Positions 1,407 to 19,766 of a DNA stretch of 42,180 bases are shown here, piece after piece. The notes beneath the pieces are model-generated. The model was not told where the DNA came from and searched no databases. It saw only the letters and a list, made by a program, of their open reading frames with translations. The translations under genes and the position numbers were made by a program. The DNA comes from a virus. How positions within the stretch are numbered: position 1 is the first letter of the stretch; every line of letters begins with the position of its first letter. Location of the stretch: the IMG/VR virus record IMGVR_UViG_3300004369_000038, positions 1 through 42,180 of that record; one strand, written 5' to 3'.

Positions 1407-1441
1407 TGTTTGTTTCTCTAGTTAACTATAAAGGAGATTAA

Positions 1442-4658: not shown

Positions 4659-4675
4659 TATATGAAAGGAGAATA

Positions 4676-5451: not shown

Positions 5452-6177
5452 ATGGAAAATACAGCAGATTGCTGGAAGCTAGTAAATGCTGTACTAGGTA
5501 AGTCAAGACGTATTTTATTATACGGACCACCAGGTACAGGTAAATCATATAGTGCAATTAAAACAAATGCACCATTAAATATGGAAGGAGAACCTAATGT
5601 GTTCTCTGTAACTATGACAGAAGATACTGCTTCTGCTAACTTAGAAGGCTTTTATAAGCCAAGTAGTAGCGGTACATTCGAATGGCATGACGGTATTGCA
5701 ATACAGTCATGGAGAAATGGTGGTCGTCTTGTTATTAATGAGATAGACCATGCATCACCAGATGCAATGACATTTCTTCACGCTATTCTTGATGACCAAG
5801 AAATAGCACAATTAACAATCAATAACGATACAAAAGAAACTGTTAAACCACAGCCAGGTTTTCAGGTTGTAGCAACAACTAACAGTCCACCAGAATCATT
5901 GCCATTAGCATTGAAGGATAGATTCCCAGTTAAAATATATGTTAACAAGATACATCCTAAAGCTATGGCACAATTTCCAGATGAATGGCATAAAGCTATT
6001 AATGATACATCTATTGTTGATGACCCAGAATCACGTGTTTCTGTTCGTTCATGGAAAGAGTTCTTTGATTTACAAAAGAATGATTTTGATATAGAAACTG
6101 CAGCTAAGTTAGTTTTTGGTGATAAAGCTGAAGAACTAATAGACGCAATACAGTTATCTAAAGTCGATGCAGAATAA
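5452..6177 (+). CDS. AAA+ ATPase of MoxR/CbbQ type
   Basis: A 241-residue single AAA+ domain. Walker A is GPPGTGKS at residues 25-32. The Walker B stretch is LVINEID (93-99), where the first acidic position is Asn but the catalytic Glu is present. A sensor-1-like VVATTN lies at about 143-148. MoxR-type ATPases work with a VWA-domain partner to remodel or activate protein complexes. The partner gene follows at once with an 11-nt overlap, the classical MoxR-VWA arrangement. GAAAGGA precedes the ATG. In phages the target of such pairs is not generally known, and I cannot infer one here. Confidence 0.85.
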   Translation: MENTADCWKLVNAVLGKSRRILLYGPPGTGKSYSAIKTNAPLNMEGEPNVFSVTMTEDTASANLEGFYKPSSSGTFEWHDGIAIQSWRNGGRLVINEIDHASPDAMTFLHAILDDQEIAQLTINNDTKETVKPQPGFQVVATTNSPPESLPLALKDRFPVKIYVNKIHPKAMAQFPDEWHKAINDTSIVDDPESRVSVRSWKEFFDLQKNDFDIETAAKLVFGDKAEELIDAIQLSKVDAE

Positions 6178-7681
6178 ACCATATCCTTATCCAGAGATAA
6201 TTACAGGTACTGAATGGCAAGTTAGAGAAACAACTAACGGTCAAGGTGCTTGTACAGACAATTTGAATAATCAAATGTATGTTCCTTTGGATAGGGAATG
6301 TGAATATTGTGGTGTTAATCATGGTCGTATGATTCGTAGACACGAATTAGGCCATGTTAAATGGTCACCAAAAACCATGGGTAAATTATCACCACAAGTA
6401 CGTAAAGAAGCTATAGAAGTACTAGAAGAAATACGTGTCAATTATTTAATGTACATTAATAATTTAGGCATTAATGAACCAACTATGTGTTTAGAAATGT
6501 TTAAGATGAAATTGATACAGCTTATAGAAAAAGGTTCTATATCAGAAATAATTCTTTACGGTTTAGCAACAATGTGGCGTAGAAATCTAATTAATTTAGA
6601 CAATAGATACATTGATGCTGAATTAGCAAAAACAGGACGATACAGTAATACACTAAGCAGTAGAATACATTACGAAGATTCACATCATTGGTCTTACGAA
6701 TTTACTTTACTGAAAGAAATTATGGCACAGTTTAGAACTAATCCACTTGTTAATCCAATAAGACAAGCAGAATTAGAATTTGCACATAATCAAATGTATC
6801 ATTTCTACAATAGATTAGTTCATAGTAGAAATGGTGCACAAGCTAGAATTACATATCGTAAAGTTCAAAAAGTTGCAGAAGAATTATCTATAATTCTTGA
6901 CCTTTTTACAGACAAACCAGAAGAAAATATATATGTTCAACCAGGTACTGGTATGGCAAATGAATCTGAAAATTCTGAACAGTCTGAAGAACAAGAAGGT
7001 ACAGAAGTTACTAATGGTTCAGGCGATGTTGTAAAAGATTTAGAACAACGCATGCGTAAACAGTTAATTGAAAAATTACAATATCATTCATCCAACGGTG
7101 TAGGTCGTTGGGGTAAAATGACTATACATACGCCACCATTAACAGATAATCTACAAGCAAGACTAAAAAATGGTAGACAATATAGACCAGCTGATTTTGG
7201 TTACAATCCTAAATACATAAATCGTTATTGTATTGACAAAAAGATATTTAAACAAAAACAGCATGTATTAGGTGGAACTATATTAATAGATGCTTCAGGT
7301 TCTATGTCATTTAGTGCAAATGATTTATTAGAAATTATGAAGATGCTACCAGCGGTTAATATTGCTATGTACAATGGTACTTATAATACAGGTGACTTAC
7401 GAATTATCGCTAAGAACGGAATGCGTGTAAATGAAAAATATTTACAAAAGCATAAAGGTCGCGGTAATGTCGTAGATGGTCCAGCATTAGAATGGTTAGC
7501 ATCAATGCCCGCTAGAAGAATATGGGTATCAGATATGCATATATTTGGTGCAGCTGGTAAACATTCTAACGGTTTAAATTTGATGAAAGACGTATTAAAC
7601 ATATGTACACGCAATCAAATAATCAACCTACAAGATATAGATGAAGTAAAGGAACATGCTATAAAACTTAATATGGTATAG
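6167..7681 (+). CDS. VWA-domain protein with HExxH metalloprotease-like site
   Basis: A 504-residue partner of the AAA+ ATPase, whose gene it overlaps by 11 nt. The N-terminal region has a CEYC pair (45-48) and HELGH at 59-63, a zinc-protease signature. A central acidic low-complexity linker, rich in E, S and Q, lies at about 262-290. The C-terminal VWA domain carries the MIDAS motif DASGSMS at 375-381. The layout resembles CobT-like subunits of chelatase and MoxR systems. I infer an ATP-driven complex acting on a protein target, host or phage, in the cytoplasm. The protease-like site could also be purely metal-binding. Nothing recognised matches a cobalamin pathway. Confidence 0.8.
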   Translation: MQNKPYPYPEIITGTEWQVRETTNGQGACTDNLNNQMYVPLDRECEYCGVNHGRMIRRHELGHVKWSPKTMGKLSPQVRKEAIEVLEEIRVNYLMYINNLGINEPTMCLEMFKMKLIQLIEKGSISEIILYGLATMWRRNLINLDNRYIDAELAKTGRYSNTLSSRIHYEDSHHWSYEFTLLKEIMAQFRTNPLVNPIRQAELEFAHNQMYHFYNRLVHSRNGAQARITYRKVQKVAEELSIILDLFTDKPEENIYVQPGTGMANESENSEQSEEQEGTEVTNGSGDVVKDLEQRMRKQLIEKLQYHSSNGVGRWGKMTIHTPPLTDNLQARLKNGRQYRPADFGYNPKYINRYCIDKKIFKQKQHVLGGTILIDASGSMSFSANDLLEIMKMLPAVNIAMYNGTYNTGDLRIIAKNGMRVNEKYLQKHKGRGNVVDGPALEWLASMPARRIWVSDMHIFGAAGKHSNGLNLMKDVLNICTRNQIINLQDIDEVKEHAIKLNMV

Positions 7682-7688
7682 TTTGGGG

Positions 7689-7835
7689 GAACATAGTAAC
7701 CAGCAATGGTGCTTGTGACCTCCTTTCCACAAGTTAAGCTATGTTCAGTAGTGGAATAGAGTCGTAAGAGAATTACGAACAAGGGTTTTCTAGTCATGTC
7801 AACAACAATCCTATAGTTAACACCACTACACCTTT
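7689..7835 (+). ncRNA. Candidate RNA with an anti-Shine-Dalgarno loop
   Basis: GAACATAG (7689-7696) pairs with CTATGTTC (7739-7746). Enclosed in it, CTTGTG (7712-7717) pairs with CACAAG (7728-7733) and presents the 10-nt loop ACCTCCTTTC. That loop matches the anti-Shine-Dalgarno tail of bacterial 16S rRNA and is fully complementary to the AAAGGAG sites used by this phage. TCGTAA/TTACGA (7762-7767 with 7773-7778) makes another hairpin. GTAGTGG/CCACTAC (7748-7754 with 7823-7829) encloses it and is followed by TTTTT, a possible terminator. There is no plausible ORF on either strand. Confidence 0.55.
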
Positions 7836-7877
7836 TTAGTGCAAGCCTGGGCTGTAGTTGAGCAAAGCGTTTGTCAA

Positions 7878-7992: not shown

Positions 7993-8020
7993 TTGTATAA
8001 AATAAAACTACGTATATAAT
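7993..8020 (+). promoter_or_regulatory. Promoter of a leaderless gene
   Basis: TTGTAT (7993-7998), a 16-bp spacer and TATAAT (8015-8020) form a good promoter. The -10 box ends 7 nt before the ATG at 8028, so transcription should begin at or next to the start codon. No ribosome binding site is present. Confidence 0.7.
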
Positions 8021-8027
8021 GATAACT

Positions 8028-8258
8028 ATGAATATAGAAGATATGCTTGCAGAAGCTGAAACTGGAAAACGTAGTGCAATTCTAGATAGAATTACAGAAG
8101 AAGCTAAACCTTTTTGGCAGGGCTGTGAAGAACGTGTAATTGCAGGACGTCAATTAAAACCATTTGTTGTTTCAAGATTATTGAAAGAACAATTTGGTAT
8201 CAAGATAAGTGAATCAGCAGTACGCAATCACTTTCAGAATCTATTGACTAATGAGTAA
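8028..8258 (+). CDS. Putative HTH-like DNA-binding protein, 76 aa
   Basis: The start at 8028 is chosen because an earlier in-frame ATG (8019) overlaps the -10 box. There is no ribosome site, so translation is probably leaderless. The protein is helical and ends with a stretch that resembles a helix-turn-helix (VVSRLLKEQFGIKISESAVRN), as seen in terminase small subunits and regulators. It overlaps the metallophosphoesterase gene by 8 nt and could be its DNA-binding partner or a transcription regulator. Moderate confidence in the HTH. Confidence 0.65.
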   Translation: MNIEDMLAEAETGKRSAILDRITEEAKPFWQGCEERVIAGRQLKPFVVSRLLKEQFGIKISESAVRNHFQNLLTNE

Positions 8259-12387: not shown

Positions 12388-12928
12388 TTTTACAGATTAT
12401 AGCAAGAAAAATACTGTTGAATACGAGCAAAATGATATTAATCGTATAAAATTTAGAGAACAAACTAAAGAACTTATTGAACTAGCCAAAGATGTTGAAG
12501 TATTTGGTGGTCGTAGATTCTTAGGTTTAAATGCAAATGGTACTGAAGTATGGGTATCATATAAAATTGACAGAAATACTTTAAATTTAGAAATGTCAGC
12601 TACTCATGACTTAAATAGTATCGTAGAGTTTGCACCTAAAAGAGTAACTGTTGGTATGAATGAACCAGCACCTACTGATTTAATGCATGCTAGAGCTACA
12701 GATACTGGAGCAGTAACACATAACACAATACGTTACATACAACGGCTAATAGACCTACCACAAGCAGTTGGTAGAGTGGATGGCAGATGTAGTACACAGT
12801 TGTTTATGTTTGTATCTAATGCAATTTACGAAGGTAAATGGGGATTAGGTGAAAAAAAAGTCAGATGGCGTGACATATTAGACGCTTGGGACTTCCCATC
12901 AGGGCGATACTTTACAGTGTATGGCTAA
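12380..12928 (+). CDS. Hypothetical protein, 182 aa
   Basis: GTG start with AAGGAAGG at a good distance and an 8-nt overlap with the previous ORF. A soluble mixed protein with an internal beta-rich segment (GTEVWVSYKIDRNTLNLEMS) and a C-terminal helical part ending in WDFPSGRYF. No catalytic motif is evident. It is directly upstream of, and overlaps by 8 nt, the SET-domain gene, so it is a candidate partner or substrate of that enzyme. Family unknown. Confidence 0.65.
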   Translation: MNNFTDYSKKNTVEYEQNDINRIKFREQTKELIELAKDVEVFGGRRFLGLNANGTEVWVSYKIDRNTLNLEMSATHDLNSIVEFAPKRVTVGMNEPAPTDLMHARATDTGAVTHNTIRYIQRLIDLPQAVGRVDGRCSTQLFMFVSNAIYEGKWGLGEKKVRWRDILDAWDFPSGRYFTVYG

Positions 12929-13223
12929 ATATAGACCATTACCTGCATATTTAACAATCAGACCTAGTTCTATAGAAGGATTAGGTCTGTTTACTATTAA
13001 AGATATATCTAAAGGTACTCAATTAGGTTTAACCCATATCTTTTGCGACTGTCATGCACAGATAATACGTACACCATTAGGTGGATTTATTAATCATAGT
13101 ACTAAACCTAACTGCAAGTTAAGTAAACTAGATGGCTTTAATTACTTATGGACAACAGAAGACATACCAGCATATAAAGAACTAACACTTAAATATACTA
13201 TGTATAATCCAGAGGAGGAATAA
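12921..13223 (+). CDS. Minimal SET-domain protein (putative lysine methyltransferase)
   Basis: A 100-residue protein with the SET hallmarks in order: EGLGLF (19-24, the GxG cofactor turn), FINHSTKPNC (56-65, the NHSxxPNC knot) and KELTLKYTMY (86-95, equivalent to the GEELxxDY strand with the catalytic Tyr). SET proteins transfer methyl groups from S-adenosylmethionine to lysines. It has no pre- or post-SET cysteine clusters and is even shorter than typical viral SET proteins. Targets could be ribosomal, nucleoid or transcription proteins of the host; none is shown. It overlaps the upstream gene by 8 nt. Confidence 0.8.
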   Translation: MAKYRPLPAYLTIRPSSIEGLGLFTIKDISKGTQLGLTHIFCDCHAQIIRTPLGGFINHSTKPNCKLSKLDGFNYLWTTEDIPAYKELTLKYTMYNPEEE

Positions 13224-17953: not shown

Positions 17954-18667
17954 CAATTTATAGTATCCAGTTTTATTAATTCTTAAATTACCTTTGTATT
18001 TAAATAAATTTTTATTTAATAAATTATTATATTTTTTATTTGTTCCAATAAACACATTTTCAATTTTAGTTTCTTTTCTTTCATATGGTATATGTACAGC
18101 TAAAGGTTGTCCTTGTTTAATAATAAATTCTTCATCAGACCTTATTAGTATTTGAATATTTATATTGTGTATATAATCAGATTTTATAACACCATAAGCT
18201 ACTTCCCAAGGCGTAGTTTTAGAATAAGGAAAGTGAATTTGTCTTATACTTACACCTGAATCTGTAAATACAAATAAAGGTAAATTAATTTTTAATATTG
18301 CAAGTACAGATTTATCGTCATAAAAATTTAACATTTGTTCAGGTTCATGACTACTAACATTATCTTCTAAAGTAACACCACTAAAATTATGGTAACTTTC
18401 AAACTCATAAGTTACTTGATTTGCTTTTATAATATAATCTTGCGGAGATAATATTACATACCCTTCTCTCCATATATCTACAAAACTTGGACAAGTTTTT
18501 ACTGTTTTTCTTTTTTGTGTATATTTAAAAAATTTTCCTGGGTCATTATCAGCATGTACATTTTTATACCATTCAGGTACATATTTAGATATGGGTTGTG
18601 GATGTAAATCTTTATTGTTAAACCAACCATTATGTGCATGACCATAAACTACTTTAAGTTTTGACAT
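17951..18667 (-). CDS. Halogenase-cassette protein B, 238 aa
   Basis: Related to the protein encoded at 19767-20498, on the other side of the halogenase. Both have PEWYK near residues 30-35, then CP near 55-60, then a beta-rich body with a G-IKSD/VKSDE strand (YGVIKSDYIHN) and a conserved acidic EFIIKQGQPL segment. The fold and function are unknown; the beta-rich pattern suggests a jelly-roll or cupin-like protein. Its start overlaps the halogenase end by 14 nt, so the two are coupled. It could bind the halogenase substrate, present a tail residue, or be a virion protein. Confidence 0.7.
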   Translation of the reverse strand: MSKLKVVYGHAHNGWFNNKDLHPQPISKYVPEWYKNVHADNDPGKFFKYTQKRKTVKTCPSFVDIWREGYVILSPQDYIIKANQVTYEFESYHNFSGVTLEDNVSSHEPEQMLNFYDDKSVLAILKINLPLFVFTDSGVSIRQIHFPYSKTTPWEVAYGVIKSDYIHNINIQILIRSDEEFIIKQGQPLAVHIPYERKETKIENVFIGTNKKYNNLLNKNLFKYKGNLRINKTGYYKL

Positions 18668-19766
18668 AGTTAATTCCTAATCCTTTCATATTCTGTCTAA
18701 AGCCTGATGGATACCAAGTTCCATAAAAATCATATAATCTATAATTAGGATTATCTAAATTATTAAGTATCTCTAATAATTTATTAGATGGATTAGACCA
18801 ACAATCTTGTGCAAGATTATGTGCATACTTCCAAAACTTTGTATCAAATCTAGGTTTACCTAAATAATGTAGTGTTATTACATCTTGACATTCTTTAAAC
18901 CATTTTATATATCTAGTATTTGCATTATCTATAGATACTTCGTGCATAATTATATCGTATATATTTCTATTAATTAAATCTACAGTACTTAAACTTGTAG
19001 CTTCCATAGGTTCAAGAAAAAAAGATGCATTACCATTATAAAAAATTCTATCAGTATAATTTATTTTACGATAATAGTTATTAAATTCTAAATAAGAACT
19101 ATCAGAAAAAGAAGTGTATCCTAATTCATCTAATAATAAATCTAAATCTTTTTCTATTTCTTTTTTATTGTTAATGTTTCTTTTAAATAAATATCCAAAT
19201 GACACTCTATTTTGTAATGGTATTGCAAAAACCCATCCATAAGGTCTAGCTTTACTTAAAGTATAATCAAAAGGTTCTTTAACATAACATTGTTTTATAA
19301 GTGCAGTATCTACTGGTATGTATTCTGCTGTATGATAATTAGTAAAATCTTTAGGTTTACCTGTGCAATCTATAATATAATCTGCATCAATATCGTCATA
19401 AGAGTTTATTTCTTTTTCTATAAATTGTTTTGAAAATTTATTAAATATATATTTTTGTAATTCACTAGCATTAAAATGTATAGATAGATTAGGCATATCA
19501 AAAGTATGATAATAATCTGATTTACCAAAACCTTCATATCTAATTGCAGTTTTAAAAGTACTATTAAATAATTTTTTTACATCATGAAACTCTAATCCAA
19601 GAGTGTGATTTAATTCTATAGGTAAACCTAACTGAGAACCTTCTCCTACACTTTGTTCTTTAATATCACCTGAATAATAACAAACAACTTCAGCATCTGT
19701 ATAAAAATTAAAATGATTAAAGGCTAAAATACCTGCAGTTCCTTTACCTATAACTGCAATTTTCAT
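18654..19766 (-). CDS. Tryptophan-halogenase-like flavoenzyme
   Basis: A 370-residue member of the flavin-dependent halogenase family. Seen are the FAD-binding GKGTAG (7-12), the conserved lysine in FKTAIRYEGF (K72, at the place of the catalytic Lys79 of PrnA and RebH), WVFAIP (178-183, where the usual second Trp of WxWxIP is Phe), EPMEATS (252-258) and HYLGKPRFDTKFW (300-312). These enzymes use reduced FAD, oxygen and halide to halogenate tryptophan or other aromatics. It is shorter than the 500-550 residue bacterial enzymes, mainly at the C terminus. The lysine and EPxEATS motifs are intact, so activity is plausible. A flavin reductase is not seen and must come from the host. Confidence 0.85.
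   Translation of the reverse strand: MKIAVIGKGTAGILAFNHFNFYTDAEVVCYYSGDIKEQSVGEGSQLGLPIELNHTLGLEFHDVKKLFNSTFKTAIRYEGFGKSDYYHTFDMPNLSIHFNASELQKYIFNKFSKQFIEKEINSYDDIDADYIIDCTGKPKDFTNYHTAEYIPVDTALIKQCYVKEPFDYTLSKARPYGWVFAIPLQNRVSFGYLFKRNINNKKEIEKDLDLLLDELGYTSFSDSSYLEFNNYYRKINYTDRIFYNGNASFFLEPMEATSLSTVDLINRNIYDIIMHEVSIDNANTRYIKWFKECQDVITLHYLGKPRFDTKFWKYAHNLAQDCWSNPSNKLLEILNNLDNPNYRLYDFYGTWYPSGFRQNMKGLGINYVKT

Follow-up and report, generated by a model that had tools for sequence, protein, structure and literature searches.

A conserved two-module RNA with an anti-Shine-Dalgarno-like loop in an uncultured marine phage

A structured RNA behind the vWA-like gene

Comparative analysis makes it near certain that a conserved structured RNA of ~150 nt exists between two gene blocks of a phage that is uncultured and marine, and one of its hairpins carries a loop complementary to Shine-Dalgarno (SD) sequences of early genes in the same genome. 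We tentatively propose that this RNA represses early-gene translation by masking the SDs, a reading to which we give somewhat less than an even chance. The window, i.e. the whole stretch of DNA analyzed, is the entire 42,180-base virus record IMGVR_UViG_3300004369_000038, in which the RNA (7685-7834, + strand) starts just 3' of the adjoining stop codon of a vWA-like gene (6167-7681, +; ORF of 504 aa). The name of this gene is a motif-based reading (DASGS) without a Pfam hit, and its product belongs to PHROG 33218, which has no assigned function. The next gene (8028-8258, +; ORF) encodes a small protein of 76 aa, called HTH-like from a sequence motif and not by database assignment, as searches of PHROG and Pfam gave no match for it. 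Among 88 relatives of the vWA-like gene in viral contigs, nearly every one with sequence 3' of that gene has an alignable RNA there; searches for relatives of the locus in cultured phages, by DNA or by vWA protein, found none.

The RNA comprises two modules, D1 and D2, enclosed by an outer stem P0. In the window P0 is short (7685-7688 with 7831-7834), and in relatives it is longer and covaries (GGTATG/CATACC, GGTAAG/CTTACC, AGAAAG/CTTTCT, GATAGG/CCTATT, TGTAAG/CTTACA). D1 (7689-7746, +) is a three-way junction closed by P1, with strands GAACATAG (7689-7696) and CTATGTTC (7739-7746), in which all 8 pairs are altered on both sides and 93.2% of cells are paired. Within it, hairpin A (7699-7710, +; ACCA-GCAA-TGGT) has a GNRA tetraloop, being GCAA in 47/53 distinct sequences and otherwise mostly GUAA, GUGA or GAAA, with 4/4 pairs covarying and 99.5% of cells paired. 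Hairpin B, the anti-SD hairpin (7712-7733, +), pairs CTTGTG (7712-7717) with CACAAG (7728-7733), and 6/6 of its pairs are changed on both sides with 96.6% of cells paired; it displays the 10-nt loop ACCUCCUUUC (7718-7727, +), which in its DNA form ACCTCCTTTC is unique in the 42 kb on both strands. Direct reading of the sequence thus bears out what an earlier note had described here, a 6-bp stem with a 10-nt loop nested in an 8-bp stem.

Evidence for the fold came mainly from relatives. Covariance model R1 matches the window at 7679-7833 (E 2e-39) and places the RNA at 70 or more viral loci of this kinship, with one copy per genome. Over 56 distinct rows, which are kin and not independent samples so that counts over them have to be read accordingly, both sides are altered in 33/34 base pairs and 95.3% of cells are paired vs. 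69.3% when shuffled, with a covariation score of 0.683 for the R1 alignment vs. 0.204 shuffled; pairing in slid controls reached only 28-45%, and shifting partners by one column reduced it to 28-39%. Folding, one of the checks proposed in the earlier note, gave an unremarkable energy for the window's RNA sequence alone (z = -0.99), as opposed to the strong comparative structure; it is the comparative evidence that is decisive for structure beyond chance, and single-sequence energy would have missed it. The search for covariation in related phage contigs, also proposed there, revealed compensatory stem changes with the loop core kept. As to the strand, G-U exceeds A-C among the RNA pairs (76 vs. 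29), and one D2 pair is U-G 12 times and C-A never; hence the + strand is the RNA.

The proposal of a noncoding RNA candidate is therefore upheld, given the covariation of 33/34 pairs and the lack of any conserved frame. A protein-coding reading of the region was rejected, with any one frame fully open in at most 7/54 sequences; the homologues keep no ORF here, nor do they lose the loop while the flanks stay. Rfam 15 gave no match in the window, and for the stretch holding the RNA there was none even when E was allowed to reach 10; a search for tRNA or tmRNA was likewise negative. Further hairpins followed by a T run had been noted, and both are present (CTTTTT from 7832), but the T run was not scored as an intrinsic terminator, there being no call at 7680-7840 and U tracts in some relatives only. 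We also do not claim a promoter directly 5' of the RNA, as the TATAGT-like sequences of relatives overlap P0 and the stop codon.

Loop complements at the ribosome sites of early genes

The + strand of the window has exactly 7 copies of AAAGGAG, the use of which at seven or more early genes had been noted earlier; they stand at all the starts that had been named, and the sole other occurrence is the complement of the loop itself. Each of the 7/7 is an SD positioned 4-8 nt 5' of a start (1442, 2258, 2600, 2993, 4052, 4204 and 4676), the first at 1430-1436 (+), further ones at 2246, 2588, 2978, 4040 and 4190 (+), and the last at 4665-4671 (+). All of these perfect 7-mer complements of the loop lie within the early block, and the predicted duplexes of loop and SD range from -9.1 to -11.5 kcal/mol. 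Extending the analysis to 13 genomes, with crude simple ORF calls as gene calls, we found AAAGGA/GAAAGG 5' of 73/158 genes (46%) located 5' of the RNA, 17/144 genes (12%) located 3' of it and 16/388 (4%) opposite-strand genes (Fisher p 3e-11 for genes 5' of the RNA vs. 3' genes, and 1e-30 vs. opposite-strand genes). Other strong SDs had no such bias (39/158 for genes 5' of the RNA vs. 122/388 for opposite-strand genes, p 0.12).

The loop had also been equated with the conserved 3' tail of 16S rRNA, which is correct for the window; among 53 distinct sequences, however, it is CCUUUC that is kept throughout (53/53) and UCCUUUC in most (47/53), with CUCCUUUC in 6/53 and the full ACCUCCUUUC in only 2/53. 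While the stem of hairpin B varies freely, this core is invariant, and its bases are shifted relative to the canonical CCUCC core. Taken together, the SDs of these phages are of the GAAAGG/AAAGGA type and not AGGAGG, thus matching the conserved core of the loop and not the canonical one. Loop and SD variants also appear to be linked: across 29 genomes, 34/54 early SDs carry G at the matching position where the loop is CUCC vs. 28/129 where it is not. A regression of loop vs. SD on the vWA tree yielded a slope of 0.41, with p 1e-6 when lambda took its best-fitting value of 0, as compared with p = 0.058 when it was set to 1 (full Brownian phylogeny). The relation is one-sided, in that SDs of UUCCUUUC-loop genomes do not favour A over background at the position in question. 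We consider this link suggestive of pairing, not proof of it. The earlier suggestion that the loop could pair with early ribosome sites thus gains from the enrichment of the core complement 5' of the RNA, but the covariation of loop and SD depends on the phylogeny model.

Computed support for SD masking comes from the RNA structure, the conservation of the loop, the concentration of complementary SDs 5' of the RNA and the arrangement of the next gene for a leaderless start. On this basis, we postulate that a stable structured RNA would be transcribed at the end of the early gene block, with the D1 hairpin displaying a copy of the anti-SD tail of 16S rRNA; the loop would then pair in trans with AAAGGA/GAAAGG sites of early mRNAs and lower their translation by this pairing, with the timing of a feedback loop or of an early-to-middle switch. 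The next gene, probably starting leaderless from its own promoter, would be spared, and D2 may serve as a scaffold or have a function of its own.

A loop that equals the 16S tail is automatically complementary to SDs, and strong SDs are common in early phage genes; both facts count against the masking of SDs by the RNA. An alternative built on the same likeness is that the loop acts as a decoy of the 16S 3' end, titrating a factor that binds the anti-SD tail (a ribosome-targeting nuclease or an initiation factor), or that the RNA is a general anti-SD RNA directed against host mRNAs. The identity of the loop with the 16S tail in the window speaks for this, as does the GNRA hairpin preceding the loop, which we take to be loosely like helix 45. 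However, h45 carries GGAA, unlike the GCAA, GUAA, GUGA or GAAA of D1; the CCUCC core is missing in most relatives; and the SD enrichment is found at the phage's own early genes. We therefore regard such a decoy as quite improbable. A wider likeness to 16S h44/h45, seen in GUAAC..GNRA..ACCUCCUUUC and in ACAAGG, was set aside as coincidence, since the matching letters are not conserved.

Module D2 and its separate occurrence

D2 (7748-7829, +; match of covariance model R2 at 7746-7831) is a second three-way junction, formed by P3 (7748-7754/7823-7829), P4 (7762-7767/7773-7778, with a GAGAA loop) and P5 (7782-7784/7810-7812). Conserved in it are GGAAUAGAGU, the GAGA loop, ACRRG and UGAACAC (UUAACAC in the window), with the exact invariance of GAATAGAGT and GAACAC being partly a product of the search patterns. 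DNA patterns together with model R2 identified D2 without D1 at ~40 distinct loci in unrelated viral contigs as well as in elements borne by two Verrucomicrobia MAGs and one Fimbriimonas MAG, and the covariation score across unrelated phages was 0.879 vs. 0.248 shuffled. By the covariance model, 4/15 pattern matches in genome_contigs were real loci, including a vWA-phage contig within a MAG; a pattern search for GAATAGAGT..TCCTTTC gave mostly chance matches, L332 being the sole new real locus. In Rfam, 16 D2 loci matched only a tRNA, and the D2 stretch at E up to 10 gave one chance snoRNA match; a short D2 query against cultured phages returned only matches at E = 4, in Thermus phages. Covariation thus establishes D2 as an RNA module, one that is shared by unrelated uncultured phages and absent from Rfam.

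The main rival to SD masking gives the pyrimidine loop a structural or protein-binding role, with incidental SD complementarity: it would either dock within the RNA, e.g. UUUC with the GAGA loop of D2, or bind a protein of the phage or the host. Both CCUUUC and GAGA are near-invariant, and UUUC/GAGA could make 4 pairs. In addition, the P5 arm of D2 in families L096, L165 and L332 can accommodate a hairpin with loop ACUCCUUUC, a recurrence reminiscent of peripheral tertiary elements, with the proviso that these hairpins were drawn by eye and that the energy model favours other folds; an anti-SD-like hairpin thus seems to have been combined with D2 in more ways than one. Against docking, the deepest relatives (L080, L261-L266) keep D1, with the longer loop UCCUCCUUUC, where D2 is absent, and therefore contact with D2 cannot be the sole reason why the D1 loop is kept; conversely, D2s without such a hairpin still keep GAGA. 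Moreover, the early SDs specifically match the loop core. We surmise that an incidental complementarity is unlikely, albeit with an appreciable chance of being correct. Many D2-only phages hardly use the AAAGGA/GAAAGG-type SD, and no correlation between SD usage and the anti-SD hairpin could be established among D2-only phages. From the presence of D2 alone in phages rarely using this SD, it follows that anti-SD pairing cannot be the whole function; this, along with the shift of the CCUUUC core from CCUCC, also counts against the masking of SDs.

D2 mostly begins a few tens of bases 3' of a stop codon, and at most loci D1 and D2 start ~0-40 nt 3' of one, in sense orientation. This position, and a T run after P0 or P3 in some loci, would fit a 3'-UTR or intercistronic element that shields or sets the 3' end of the vWA mRNA, or keeps this mRNA apart from the next transcript, without any role in trans. 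Such an element is improbable in our view, as no terminator is called at the window's RNA, T runs are not general, two D2 copies in contig L219 are antisense to both neighbours, and the conserved loop would be left unexplained. Some elements carry D2 twice, sometimes in tandem, and its compact three-way junction, with conserved joining strands and occurrence alone in unrelated phages, could also suggest a self-cleaving ribozyme or a ligand-binding junction to which D1 is accessory; as no ribozyme or riboswitch in Rfam resembles it, we hold this to be very improbable.

Among the loci with two copies, the pair in L219 (2745-2888, −) is arranged back to back at a spacing of 72 nt and flanked by a terminase and a portal-like gene; the contig was binned as Fimbriimonas. 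A jumbo-sized virus contig of 347 kb carries two copies 256 bases apart with repeated flanks (L171:2315-2652). In the D2-only phages L141, L224, L230 and L232, no SD separates D2 from the next start codon, which lies in or directly 3' of the closing stem.

Known systems and the leaderless start of the next gene

The postulated mode of action has precedents in NfeR1, SisA and c4. In Sinorhizobium meliloti, NfeR1 (alpha-r14, or 'cuckoo' anti-SD sRNA) represses through aSD loops that pair at initiation regions (PMC10746234). As in NfeR1, a hairpin of variable stem exposes a strongly conserved anti-SD motif (PMC10746234), the pairing in our case being putative. The alpha-r14 RNAs are recognized by three hairpins with an identical unpaired CCUCCUCCC, each of which NfeR1 has (PMC10746234), whereas the phage RNA has one anti-SD hairpin, with core CCUUUC set in a three-way junction and CCUCCUUUC in 4/53, and is joined to the unrelated second junction D2. 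The SisA-D sRNAs of Caulobacter repress many targets, probably via a 10-mer anti-SD signature (PMC12559287); unlike the phage RNA, they are host genes with no known D2-like module and no link to an early block. In phages P1 and P7, the antisense c4 RNA, with complementary stretches probably in loops, blocks a ribosome site of a phage mRNA (PMC12197685). The loop described here is likewise complementary to ribosome sites of phage mRNAs (seven perfect 7-mers, all early SDs), but c4 is aimed at one mRNA (ant), in contrast to a generic SD complement common to many early genes. GOLLD, ROOL and OLE are structured RNAs from comparative genomics with unknown or partly known function, some of them phage-linked (PMC2864571, PMC12286853); the phage RNA differs in being much smaller and without an Rfam match. 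In the open-licence literature, we found no report of an anti-SD loop sRNA from a phage, nor of a structured phage RNA of such make-up aimed at its own early block.

The absence of an SD at 8028, noted earlier together with the suggestion that this gene would escape, is confirmed and is explained by its start architecture. A Sigma70-like promoter, TTGTAT-16-TATAAT, ends 7 nt before the ATG (7993-8027, +), and 47 relatives share the form TTGNNN-16-TATAAT, with a spacer of 16 in 46/47, TATAAT in 40/47 and a distance of 7 nt from -10 to ATG in 46/47. Such a fixed distance strongly indicates leaderless mRNA in these uncultured phages, and transcription of the HTH-like gene should start at or beside the AUG. 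A broader proposal is that these phages time their genes by RNA, with a decoy anti-SD loop silencing SD-led early genes from which a leaderless successor escapes, and with D2 as a new widespread class of phage RNA having its own activity; in this full form we think it doubtful. If true, the virus would separate its own mRNAs by initiation mode, silencing those led by an SD and sparing the leaderless one, and leaderless translation would be tied to phage timing.

Many relatives also harbor, between the RNA and the HTH-like gene, a conserved and apparently folded start-stop unit of ~200 nt (L012, L017, L036, L047, L056, L061, L065, L067, L068, L069 and L070), for which Rfam gave no match. It opens with a strong SD, as GAAAGGA..ATG, and then a stop follows at once or after one codon. 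Elsewhere in the window, the middle region of the phage encodes a small SET-domain-like protein (12921-13223, +; Pfam PF00856, E 2e-7), and a phage gene at 18654-19766 (−) matches tryptophan halogenase (Pfam PF04820, E 2e-32).
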